DNA of 16,622 nt from Bdellovibrio sp. (lineage in GTDB: Bacteria > Bdellovibrionota > Bdellovibrionia > Bdellovibrionales > Bdellovibrionaceae). Position 1 is the stretch's first letter. Each line of letters begins with the position of its first letter. Below, one piece after another: positions 7,977-11,736 of the stretch. The translations under genes were made by a program, and so were the position numbers. The stretch is taken from NCBI GenBank assembly GCA_019104905.1, contig JAHRXB010000184.1, forward strand, positions 1 through 16,622, written 5' to 3'. The notes beneath the pieces are model-generated. The model was not told where the DNA came from. It worked only from the letters and a program-made list of their open reading frames with translations, and did no database searches.

Positions 7977-7991
7977 GCTTACAGTGTAAGC
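7977..7991. promoter_or_regulatory. palindrome 1, candidate operator upstream of lipoprotein gene
   Basis: GCTTACA-G-TGTAAGC is a perfect 7-1-7 palindrome just beyond the terminator. It shares arm length, central G and 11 of 15 bases with the palindrome at 8086-8100. The regulator is unknown. Confidence 0.4.
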
Positions 7992-8085: not shown

Positions 8086-8100
8086 GCTCAAAGTTTGAGC
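8086..8100. promoter_or_regulatory. palindrome 2, candidate operator upstream of lipoprotein gene
   Basis: GCTCAAA-G-TTTGAGC is a perfect 7-1-7 palindrome centred 109 bases after palindrome 1 and 121 bases before the lipoprotein start. TTGTCA (8066-8071) lies just upstream and could be a -35, but I see no convincing -10. Apart from these two repeats and the terminator, the stretch 7921-8213 shows no gene. Confidence 0.4.
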
Positions 8101-8213: not shown

Positions 8214-9743
8214 ATGAAAAAATGGATAAAGTTCTCTACCGGCCTTGCCACAGCGTCCATGCTGGCGGCGTGTTCCGGCGGTGGCGGCAGTGATAGTGCG
8301 GCCCCCTCAACGGAGCCCACAAAATCACTGACAGTTTCAGGAACCGTCAGCGCACCGACAATCATGAACTACAAACCACTGGGATGGGATTCAAGTTTGG
8401 GTGCCTACTTTGTTGATACAAAAGTGATGCGCTGTACTCCCGGCTCAGGTCCGAATGTGGCTGGTGAAGGCACCATCGGTGACGACGGTAAGTTCAGCTT
8501 TACGATCAGCGGAATGGCTGAAGGCGCAGCTTTGGGTTGCTGGATCTATATTAATGGCATTCCTTCGATTCCTCTGGCCTTTGCCAACTCAACAGCTCTC
8601 TCTGGCTCAGGAAGCACTCAGCAAACGGGTTATGCTCCAAGAGCCAATGCCACGTCACTGAGCTTAGGCACTATTTCTATTCAGACCGTCAGTCTTCCAG
8701 GAGGCGGTAGCTATTCTGTGGCCGTGGTCACCCCGTCATCTATCGTGGACAACGGCACGACTGAGGCCGCCGCTTTTGCTGACATGACCGGTATTTGGTC
8801 TGCGTCTGTCGTTGACGATCAGTCCAATGGTTATGTTCACCCTTGTGCTAACGAAGGTGCTGACTATCAAGCAGAGTGCCAGGCTGAATGGACAAATGCG
8901 TCTTTCTTCATCAACAACTTCTCTGCGACCAAAGATGCTGAAGTTCGAAGAGGCTTTTCTCTTTGGGCCAGCAAAGCTGCGTTTGACAACTGCGGTGGCA
9001 AGGAAGGCATCATTATTGATCCCTCATGGACGATTGATGGAACCTACAAAGACACTGTGAAAACTTCCTACGGCGCCCCCGCGTTTGATCCCACACAGTT
9101 GATCACTGACGACATGTTGTTGAAAGCTCCGTTTAAAAAGTGGACAGATTCAAATGACCCTTCTCGCACCAACTGCCAACGCATGGGCAGCAGTACTCAA
9201 AGCACCACGTGTGACACCGCCACGAACTGCCAAGAGTTTGTTGCGGGCTTCACAAGTCCTGACAACGCCGACAAACTGAGCTGTATAATAAACTCCATGA
9301 ACAGCGGCGGTCTTCGTGCTTACAACTGGGGTGCGAATGTTTGCGCTCGCCGCATCGATCAAGATGATTGGACAAAGATCTCTGGTAATTTTGATGGGGA
9401 TAAGAAGTGCAAGACGGCGGACTGTGATGGGGGAATCAAATGGAAATCCGAACCGGCTTTCCGTCATTTCTCTAGCGAATTGATCACTAGTGGAAACACG
9501 GGTTCGGCCTCATTCACTGGCGAAGAGTCTGACAACTACAATGGCAAACTTTGTGAAGTGTTCCGCACAACAAGCTTTTACATCACTCAAGCTTCTGCCA
9601 CAAAGGCGACAATCATTGTGGAATTCTCAATGCGCAAAAAAGATCCTGATAACTGGCCACAGGAGTGCGAGGACAGCTCATGGATGAGTTCTCAGATGGA
9701 TAAAGTGCTTCGTCACAAAATCAATCTGACTAAAGTTCAATAA
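8214..9743 (+). CDS. Cys-rich surface-type lipoprotein, function unknown
   Basis: This 509-residue protein starts at the ATG at 8214 with AAGGAGGAG (8199-8207) upstream; the frame is open before this but lacks a good start. A lipoprotein signal ends in LAAC (residues 17-20), so Cys20 should be lipidated. Ser at +2 and a GGGGS linker suit export to the outer membrane. Residues about 38-100 look like a beta-sandwich or Ig-like module (LTVSGTVSAP, then GTIGDDGKFSFTISG). The rest is rich in Thr, Ser, Asn and aromatic residues and holds most of the 14 further cysteines, an even number that fits disulfides after export. DMTGIWSASVVDD may begin a second domain. I do not recognise the family. The gene stands alone between two terminators. 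Confidence 0.85.
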   Translation: MKKWIKFSTGLATASMLAACSGGGGSDSAAPSTEPTKSLTVSGTVSAPTIMNYKPLGWDSSLGAYFVDTKVMRCTPGSGPNVAGEGTIGDDGKFSFTISGMAEGAALGCWIYINGIPSIPLAFANSTALSGSGSTQQTGYAPRANATSLSLGTISIQTVSLPGGGSYSVAVVTPSSIVDNGTTEAAAFADMTGIWSASVVDDQSNGYVHPCANEGADYQAECQAEWTNASFFINNFSATKDAEVRRGFSLWASKAAFDNCGGKEGIIIDPSWTIDGTYKDTVKTSYGAPAFDPTQLITDDMLLKAPFKKWTDSNDPSRTNCQRMGSSTQSTTCDTATNCQEFVAGFTSPDNADKLSCIINSMNSGGLRAYNWGANVCARRIDQDDWTKISGNFDGDKKCKTADCDGGIKWKSEPAFRHFSSELITSGNTGSASFTGEESDNYNGKLCEVFRTTSFYITQASATKATIIVEFSMRKKDPDNWPQECEDSSWMSSQMDKVLRHKINLTKVQ

Positions 9744-9767: not shown

Positions 9768-9796
9768 AAGGGAGTCCTCAGGACTCCCTTCTTTTT
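9768..9796 (+). terminator. intrinsic terminator of the lipoprotein gene
   Basis: AAGGGAGTCC (9768-9777) and GGACTCCCTT (9781-9790) pair perfectly around a 3-base loop, followed by CTTTTT. It lies between two convergent genes. The minus-strand transcript would fold the same stem but has no U-run after it, so action is mainly on the plus strand. Confidence 0.9.
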
Positions 9797-9802
9797 CAGA
9801 CA

Positions 9803-11329
9803 CTATTGTACCGTGTCCTGCCCCTCTAACATAGCCAGAGCCTGCTTGCGCCAAGGAGCTTCAGCTTCCAGATCTGCCAAGAGACTCCAAAGGCTGGCGT
9901 TGACCAAAAAGGAGCGCAGTAAAGACTTATCAAAGCGTAATTTCTTGCGATCTTTGAAGTTGCGATTTTCCATATTCATCGAGCGCAAAAAAGATCGTGT
10001 GATCCTAAATGGCGTCTCCACAAGATGATGTTCTTGTTGCTTCTGCAGCAAACGCCAAAACTCCTCAAAGTTAAAGGACTCAGGATCCTGAATAAGACTT
10101 CTTTTTTTGAATTCAGCAAAAACCTGCGCCTTTCTTTTATTGAGAATGGCCAAATACAAGAATCTTTCTTTTTCAAGCTCGTCACTTTCGTACTCAATGA
10201 TGCGGCCAAAATCCAAGAAAACCACCTGGTTCTCTCTAAAAAGAAAGTTTCCAGGATGAGCATCCCCGTGCAGAAGACCCCGTCGGAAGATGGCATAACT
10301 ATGAAAATAGGCGATCAAAAGTCCGGCCTGAGATTTTTCTTGAGCCGTGGCTCTTGCGCAGAATGTGGCAAAAGGAAGTCCCGACTCAAATTGACTGACA
10401 ATAACATTTTTATTGCACAGCTCGCGATATGTTTTGGGAATCACGATGCGAGGTTCGTGCTCAAAAATATTGCGAAAGCGCTCTTGATTGTACACCTCTC
10501 GCTCATAATCGACTTCCAACAATACCTGATTTTGAATTTCCTGAAGAACGTCTTCGGACTGCTTCCCCAAGAGACCACCTAAAAAGGAAATGATGGCCAA
10601 CTTTTTAAACTGGCCATCCAGGATTTGTGAGATTCCAGGATGTTTCACCTTGATCACAACTTCTTCACCACCCAACAATGTCGCTCGATGAACTTGAGCA
10701 AGACTTGTTACCACCATGGGCTCTGGATTGATCTTGGCAAAAATTTTCGCTAAGGGACGTCCGTAGGACTCTTTTAAGATCTCTTGAATCTGCGGGAATG
10801 AGAGTGGCTTTCCTTTGGACTGAATATCCCCAAGAAGGGTCGAAATCTCGGGCGGTAATCCCATCTCCAAAAAACTCGCCATCTGGGCAACTTTAATTGA
10901 AAGTCCGCGAGAACCCTCGAAAGATTTTAAAATCTGCCGGGCCACGGCCAATTTCACCTTGCCACGCACACGATCCTTGGCGAAAGCATCTCCAAAGAAT
11001 GACTCAATAAAGCTATTTAGATGTTTTTTTGTGTCCTCTTCAAGGATGAGATGCTCGTCGTTAAGGGTCTCTATCAGGCTTTTAAAAAAATCCCGAGATA
11101 CCTGCAAAGCTTCTTCAGTGATTATGGACTCTGACGCTGCCCGCAGACTCAGTGATTCTTCATAGATGTCGATCAAACGAATAACGGGCCCCGGAATAGG
11201 GCGAGCCCCTGACTCCCAGTGAGCAATCGCTCCGCTCGTTACTTGGAATTCATTGGCAAGATCACGCTGGGAATACCCCAAAAACTCGCGAAGCTTTTTT
11301 AGACGGATCGGATTCTCTGACTGAGCCAT
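9803..11329 (-). CDS. XRE-type helix-turn-helix fused to ABC1/UbiB atypical kinase
   Basis: This 508-residue protein starts at the ATG whose first base is 11329; the GTG at 11344 has no ribosome site. Residues about 6-55 form a Cro/C1 helix-turn-helix (RLKKLREFLGYSQRDLANEF, then VTSGAIAHWESG). An acidic helical linker follows to about residue 120. The remainder is an ABC1/ADCK/UbiB kinase: KVAQ at 146-149 in place of KxGQ, SLAQVHRA at 209-216, VIKVKHPG with the probable catalytic Lys227, LEVDYERE with Glu272, HGDAHPGN at 354-361 and DFG at 373-375. All core kinase residues seem present. The C-terminal membrane hairpin of classical UbiB proteins is not visible, so the protein is probably soluble. 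UbiB-type ATPases serve quinone synthesis or lipid handling; joining one to a DNA-binding domain suggests a regulator, by inference. A thioredoxin gene lies 56 bases upstream, same strand. Confidence 0.9.
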   Translation of the reverse strand: MAQSENPIRLKKLREFLGYSQRDLANEFQVTSGAIAHWESGARPIPGPVIRLIDIYEESLSLRAASESIITEEALQVSRDFFKSLIETLNDEHLILEEDTKKHLNSFIESFFGDAFAKDRVRGKVKLAVARQILKSFEGSRGLSIKVAQMASFLEMGLPPEISTLLGDIQSKGKPLSFPQIQEILKESYGRPLAKIFAKINPEPMVVTSLAQVHRATLLGGEEVVIKVKHPGISQILDGQFKKLAIISFLGGLLGKQSEDVLQEIQNQVLLEVDYEREVYNQERFRNIFEHEPRIVIPKTYRELCNKNVIVSQFESGLPFATFCARATAQEKSQAGLLIAYFHSYAIFRRGLLHGDAHPGNFLFRENQVVFLDFGRIIEYESDELEKERFLYLAILNKRKAQVFAEFKKRSLIQDPESFNFEEFWRLLQKQQEHHLVETPFRITRSFLRSMNMENRNFKDRKKLRFDKSLLRSFLVNASLWSLLADLEAEAPWRKQALAMLEGQDTVQ

Positions 11330-11385: not shown

Positions 11386-11736
11386 TTACGGATTCTGTCG
11401 ACGAACTTCTTCCATGTCGACCTCTTTGGCTTTTTCAACGACCTGCTCGAAAACATTCTCTGACAAAGCTCCCGGCTGCACAAAAATAATATCACCGTCT
11501 TTAATCACGGCAATCGTCGGAATCGACATCACTTCAAATTGCGCCGCCAGCTCTTGTTCCGCTTCAGTGTCCACTTTACCGAAAACAACACCTGGATGTT
11601 TGATTGCCACCGTTTCAAAAATGGGGGCAAAACGACGACAGGGACCACACCACGAAGCCCAAAAATCCAAAATAACAAGTTCGTTATTTTGAATGGTCTC
11701 TTTGATATTTTGTTTCGTGATTTCTAGCACAGCCAT
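11386..11736 (-). CDS. thioredoxin
   Basis: This 116-residue thioredoxin has no signal peptide, so it should act in the cytoplasm as a dithiol reductant. The start is the ATG at 11736 with GGAG seven bases upstream; a TTG four codons earlier overlaps that ribosome site. The active site is WCGPC with Cys30 and Cys33, preceded by the buried Asp24 in LDFWASWC. The cis-proline is Pro73 in SIPT. The domain is complete, with a short charged tail (VDMEEVRRQNP) beyond the usual end. It is divergent from the DUF3015 gene and followed on the same strand by the HTH-ABC1 kinase gene, with no terminator between, so the two may be co-transcribed. It may be one of several thioredoxins, so I give no symbol. 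Confidence 0.93.
   Translation of the reverse strand: MAVLEITKQNIKETIQNNELVILDFWASWCGPCRRFAPIFETVAIKHPGVVFGKVDTEAEQELAAQFEVMSIPTIAVIKDGDIIFVQPGALSENVFEQVVEKAKEVDMEEVRRQNP

Follow-up and report, generated by a model that had tools for sequence, protein, structure and literature searches.

What does a DNA-binding domain do on a protein whose other part belongs to the ABC1/UbiB atypical kinases? This question is raised by a gene in a 16,622-nucleotide stretch of Bdellovibrio sp. DNA (contig JAHRXB010000184.1; the whole stretch analysed is hereafter called the window), which encodes a Cro/C1-type helix-turn-helix (HTH) domain followed by a COQ8/UbiB-type kinase region, here named HTH-ABC1. HTH-ABC1 probably acts as a soluble one-component regulator of the locus that encodes it, its COQ8-type ATPase being the sensor. 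An initial annotation of this DNA had already suggested a soluble DNA-binding regulator, and this is supported by the HTH being the most conserved part of the protein and by a candidate operator that accompanies the loci.

Domain architecture of HTH-ABC1

The gene occupies positions 9803..11329 of the minus strand (ATG at 11329, stop at 9803-9805) and encodes 508 residues, comprising the HTH (residues 9-58), a linker and the kinase region (about residues 130-502). Both the coordinates and the single continuous frame had been given correctly by the initial annotation, and no frameshift joins two genes. The N-terminal Cro/C1 HTH that it had claimed is recovered by the Pfam profiles HTH_19 (residues 9-49, 32.1 bits against a cut-off of 30.2, E 1.1e-7) and HTH_3 (23.9 bits against 23.0), with HTH_31 narrowly below its threshold (26.9 bits against 27). 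In the predicted structure the HTH helices span residues 6-17, 21-28, 32-40 and 47-59, and the linker (about residues 61-90) is of low model confidence; the best PDB match by sequence for the HTH part is a lambda-repressor-like protein (E 0.001). By profile and predicted helices, the protein is a member of the Cro/C1 (XRE) HTH regulators. It is also a member of the ABC1/UbiB atypical kinase superfamily, matching Pfam ABC1 over residues 169-402 (155.5 bits against 22.9, E 1.7e-45) and possessing the complete Lys/Glu/Asp-Asn/DFG set, with K227, E272, HGDAHPGN (354-361) and DFG (373-375) all as first described.

The membrane hairpin had been reported as absent, and the hydropathy profile agrees: the best 19-residue value is 1.22, compared with 2.67 in the UbiB-length paralogue of the same genome. 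Values above 1.6 occurred in 10 of the 111 fused proteins (defined below), versus 39 of the 41 unfused ones of UbiB length. The KxGQ motif does read KVAQ (residues 146-149), but the argument that had been built on the replacement of Gly by Ala148 fails, because Ala is common at this position (33/111 fused proteins, in which Gly accounts for 66/111, and 20/126 unfused ones) and the nucleotide preference of ADCK3/COQ8A is set elsewhere. In that protein the ADP/ATP preference is governed by Ala339 in the Ala-rich loop, and the pocket for the substrate is closed off by the KxGQ segment (PMC4718504). Ala148 was thus rejected as a special feature; the Ala-rich loop, which reads VVTS in the window protein, would be a better spot to look for nucleotide preference.

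Conservation of both halves

Relatives were drawn from two protein searches with 257 and 1935 matches, the top 120 being taken in each case; only the 8000 candidates sharing most words were scored each time. A protein was counted as fused when the HTH was found at E <1e-3 with a profile built from 18 of the same proteins, and 111 of the 239 listed relatives plus the window protein (P0001) carry it. Close relatives hold the HTH in frame, so the possibility that orthologues begin downstream of it, which could have undermined the fusion, was not borne out; the near relatives P0015, P0017 and P0018 start right after the HTH, reflecting either loss or mis-called starts.

Conservation was evaluated on the 240 proteins minus six (under 380 residues, none of them fused) plus three paralogues from the window's own genome. 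The residues K227, E272, D356, N361 and D373 are all retained in 110 of the 111 fused proteins, P0216 being the exception, and in 125 of the 126 unfused ones. Among the fused proteins the region of highest conservation is the HTH, for which the mean identity between the window protein and the others is 0.616 (residues 9-58), compared with 0.158 for the linker, 0.354 for the kinase (residues 169-402) and 0.286 for the C-terminal part. Judged from these alignments, both halves of HTH-ABC1 are under selection. The HTH is also of no generic type: in the 24 genomes of the genus the HTH profile exceeded 110 bits solely in the three HTH-ABC1 proteins and the next best score was just 40 bits.

Candidate operator palindromes

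Dyads listed upstream of 13 loci first suggested a one-base-centred palindrome with an ACA-N-TGT core and longer arms, and the tests came later; with G305, G313 and G315 (one genus) counted once, there were 11 independent loci. ACA-N-TGT is present within -200..+40 of the HTH-ABC1 gene in seven of these 11 (shuffle mean 0.44, 0/2000 as high), compared with 5/122 upstream of other open reading frames (ORFs) at the same loci (Fisher 1.8e-6). Three of those five belong to the lipoprotein genes of the window and of G013 and to a divergent lipoprotein gene in G305, which shares its site with HTH-ABC1. Among 64 half-sites at 13 spacings, ACA with one-base spacing was the commonest, the runner-up reaching five loci.

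In the window, the candidate operator O1 (7977..7991, strandless; GCTTACA-G-TGTAAGC, with 7-bp perfect arms and a 1-base centre) precedes the lipoprotein gene. A second palindrome, O2 (8086..8100, strandless; GCTCAAA-G-TTTGAGC), lies 109 bp away, centre to centre; it has the geometry of O1 without the ACA/TGT core and is the weaker candidate, differing from the core of the G013/G234 candidate operator mainly in a single symmetrical replacement of ACA by AAA. Within the modules of the 13 loci (28.6 kb in all, our own sum) there are ten palindromes with 7/7 arms and a one-base centre, compared with 13 in the 167 kb outside; for even-centred ones the numbers are two inside and 14 outside. Seven of the ten are operator-like (O1 and O2 of the window, and those of G013, G234, G350, G169 and G241, the G013 site reaching 13-bp arms as read by eye); the other three are a terminator-like stem in the window (9779) and two palindromes inside genes (L067 10798, L077 87).

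Exact copies of the 17-mer core common to G013 and G234, CGCTCACANTGTGAGCG, were found in just two of the 368 genomes, each time at the HTH-ABC1 locus, against about 0.3 chance matches expected by hand estimate for this amount of DNA; since the pattern was derived from those two loci, what counts is that it is missing elsewhere and that two families have it in identical form. An exact O1 was found once in the 24 genus genomes, in the window itself, and the sole O1 match of G008 at ≤1 mismatch is upstream of its HTH-ABC1. The broad pattern YNACANTGTNR, with 146 sites per strand in the window's own genome against 86 in the reversed control, was too unspecific and was rejected as a regulon definition. 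These results show that the palindrome, a candidate operator, is linked to HTH-ABC1 loci.

Proposed mechanism and the autoregulating-enzyme alternative

The Cro/C1-type HTH, probably dimeric, would bind (arms)-YNACA-N-TGTNR-(arms) palindromes at its own locus, and the bound regulator would control itself and/or the adjacent gene, which in the window is the lipoprotein gene behind O1/O2; from the few sites per genome we infer that control is local. The soluble COQ8/MABP-type domain would supply dimerisation and a nucleotide- or ligand-dependent switch, in that it may bind ATP/ADP as well as, probably, a small hydrophobic ligand, and could thereby set the hold of the HTH on the operator. A tie between DNA binding and nucleotide state or a quinone or lipid ligand, as envisaged in the initial annotation, is plausible because the catalytic residues are so widely retained. 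MABP-1 is described as a slow ATPase and a dimer (PMC6208485). The COQ8 ATPase is reportedly stimulated by quinone-intermediate analogues, perhaps also phospholipids (PMC7263595), and activated by 2-propylphenol (PMC7877690), which suggests candidate ligands.

Several observations weigh against the regulator interpretation. The motif was noticed before it was tested, and with every 3-base half-site admitted at each of 13 spacings, seven loci were attained by some half-site in 53 of 1000 shuffles; the 20 of these that were listed all had AAA or TTT. No ACA-N-TGT is found upstream of HTH-ABC1 itself in four of the 11 loci (window, G013, G069 and G241); in the window and G013 it sits before the lipoprotein gene instead, G241 has the upstream palindrome TGCTTTCA-G-TGAAAGCA with a TCA-N-TGA core, and G069 has none. 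Palindrome arms vary between families, O1 at ≤1 mismatch is at chance level across the genus (15 versus 13 in the reversed control), and a consensus scan found no promoter-like match over O1/O2. Furthermore, most known ABC1 relatives have links to the metabolism of lipids or quinones.

In the leading alternative, the HTH controls only its own expression and the ABC1 domain is an ordinary lipid or quinone ATPase, so that the protein is an autoregulating trigger enzyme (PutA and BirA are examples of such enzymes) and no sensor. The retained catalytic residues, the candidate site upstream of the HTH-ABC1 gene itself at seven loci and the near-uniqueness of the sites in the genomes searched all fit an enzyme of this kind; nevertheless, it appears unlikely, given that the window, G013 and G305 have a site before a lipoprotein gene and that the HTH is better conserved than the enzyme part.

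Family distribution and origin

Fused genes were found in at least 13 of 368 genomes of the phylum and in three of the 24 of the genus; the genes of G241 and G313 run to the contig end, and the HTH-ABC1 frame of G270 is broken within the HTH (L072 9440-9700), maybe as a decaying copy, maybe through sequence error. The few named hosts of fused proteins are Bdellovibrio (P0010), an Oligoflexia bacterium (P0220) and one Verrucomicrobiota metagenome-assembled genome (MAG; P0172). A scan of genome contigs for the fused gene returned one locus, that of G008. Carriage by phages or plasmids was rejected, as no place covering 80% of the query was found for the window protein in 50,697 phage records or for P0028 and P0140 in 72,556 plasmid records, and two scans of viral contigs gave no fused relative, one returning nothing and the other one locus aligned only from query residue 109.

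A kinase-only tree was built by a quick method from 106 rows thinned from the 111 fused and 126 unfused proteins, leaving 41 of its 103 inner branches open. All 58 fused rows fall into one group of 68 together with ten unfused ones (SH-like approximate likelihood-ratio test, 88). The fused label requires 11 changes, of which the starred branches force at least six. A single origin of the fusion seems likely on this tree, though it is not forced by it. Within the fused group, the unfused P0210 starts in the apparent last HTH helix and P0162 at the kinase start, and both are probably truncated calls; P0015, P0017 and P0018 are also among the ten, and the five remaining unfused rows may be true HTH losses. 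Two further ABC1 genes were seen in passing: a very divergent one in the window's own genome (L004, G000:C165), which lies in an open frame of 679 residues with a signal-like segment at the N-terminus, and another fusion in an Elusimicrobia MAG (P0033, 749 residues), with methyltransferase and ABC1 domains in precomputed Pfam.

Neighbouring genes and cassette behaviour

The lipoprotein gene (8214..9743, plus strand) has the lipobox LAAC and no Pfam family at cut-off, and converges on HTH-ABC1; a terminator-like stem-loop lies between them (9768..9790, plus strand), from a consensus scan in which the regional number was at shuffle level. Just upstream of HTH-ABC1 and on the same strand is a thioredoxin gene (11386..11736, minus strand), which is no conserved partner; it was rejected in this role since the four relatives whose region was examined (G003, G009, G018 and G020) have it in the same surroundings but no intact HTH-ABC1. 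No conserved operon partner was found across families, wide synteny being confined to G305, G313 and G315. A foreign base composition of the lipoprotein/HTH-ABC1 pair was likewise rejected, their guanine-plus-cytosine contents (0.50 and 0.45) being near those of seven neighbours (0.44-0.49). In G169, HTH-ABC1 overlaps the start of a ferritin-like frame (L073 116-2354; weak DUF2383, below cut-off), an arrangement seen once and reminiscent of diiron quinone enzymes.

The window pair is flanked by the thioredoxin gene and a peptidyl-prolyl-isomerase-like gene (named from sequence). Of the relatives, G003 has the thioredoxin most similar to that of the window (92%); its slot of about 240 bp keeps a 34-residue HTH-ABC1 remnant (68% identical) and a decayed O1, so HTH-ABC1 was once present there and then lost. 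G009, G018 and G020 have other content in this slot, which looks like a variable spot. The G020 slot (L115 8987-11350) shows IS3-like transposase frames and a small secreted-looking protein, the latter also in the G009 and G018 slots, all by eye.

The only strong homologue of the window lipoprotein in the 24 genus genomes adjoins the HTH-ABC1 of G013, where the lipoprotein (34-38%) and HTH-ABC1 (49%) genes lie between Hsp33 and a phospholipase-D-like gene, in tandem rather than convergent as in the window. The corresponding site is empty in G020, with the aligned ends of the two flanking genes about 20 bp apart; in G017 some 680 bp separate them, and the stretch examined in G023 and in G002 showed no Hsp33. 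For the G008 locus, seven relatives showed one flank syntenic and the other not found within the stretch examined. The homologous pair thus occupies different sites in G000, the window's genome, and G013, showing cassette behaviour in two genomes.

The pair could in principle be a mobile addiction, competition or defence cassette, in which HTH-ABC1 would be the half that provides control or immunity and regulates itself, while the palindromes would serve the cassette. The patchy distribution, the differing sites, the empty site and remnant, and the G008 neighbour lipoprotein, which resembles that of the window over the first 33 residues alone (the signal-peptide region), are in keeping with this. 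We nevertheless regard it as improbable: the PADLOC defence models matched just six times, each weakly and in part (the best at E 0.00068, covering residues 10-64), the lipoprotein lacks a Pfam family at cut-off, and G006, G023 and G004, in which no HTH-ABC1 was found, have weaker homologues of the lipoprotein (another, in G008, lies away from its HTH-ABC1). Lipoprotein genes adjoin HTH-ABC1 in just five of the 11 loci (5/20 flanking ORFs versus 6/112 others, p 0.012, by a home-made lipobox rule), which makes a lipoprotein a frequent, non-universal companion. A third alternative would make the HTH an adaptor that binds protein or RNA, like the winged-helix domain with which RIO2 kinases act on pre-ribosomes, and would leave the palindromes without a relation to it or as the ends of a mobile unit. 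It is highly improbable, as several families have the sites together with the gene, at differing distances and with differing arms, the 17-mer is restricted to two HTH-ABC1 loci, and no second palindrome copy lies on the other side of the window's gene.

Significance and comparison with known systems

How COQ8/UbiB domains use ATP is a long-standing question, and we know of no natural read-out of their state. With an HTH fused to such a domain and a predictable operator, operator occupancy would become an assay for nucleotide and ligand effects; if HTH-ABC1 is indeed a regulator, DNA binding would report directly on what UbiB-type domains sense, and the COQ8-type domain would join the candidate sensor domains of one-component regulators. 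We tentatively propose, as a possibility, a new one-component class with a COQ8/UbiB-type ATPase sensor (for an isoprenoid, lipid or quinone plus ATP/ADP), which in Bdellovibrio would be carried as a mobile cassette that brings along an operator and has a lipoprotein for its output.

Each half belongs to a known family, and their combination with a linked candidate operator is new as far as we found. Databases file such genes merely as 'AarF/UbiB family protein' or similar, and no description of an HTH-ABC1 protein was found among the papers listed from the open-licence PubMed Central literature. The terms HTH, helix-turn and DNA-binding are absent from the main text of a 2005 survey of prokaryotic kinase architectures (PMC1262709), and the accessible portion of a 2005 signalling census names ABC1/AarF without an HTH (PMC1183210).

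Among the known systems, COQ8A/ADCK3 and UbiB differ from the window protein in that the latter lacks the C-terminal membrane hairpin of UbiB, has an HTH, reads VVTS in the Ala-rich loop and scores 127.1 bits against the 487.55 of the UbiB equivalog TIGR01982. The soluble mycobacterial ABC1 proteins MABP-1 (Rv3197) and MSMEG_1954 have no HTH, unlike the window protein, which reaches 114.1 of the 800 bits set for the NCBIfam MABP-1 model NF050082. With the Cro/C1 (XRE) one-component regulators it has in common that a single polypeptide carries the HTH at its N-terminus and that a palindromic candidate operator lies at the locus, whereas none of these regulators is described in the same literature with an ABC1/COQ8 domain as its second part.
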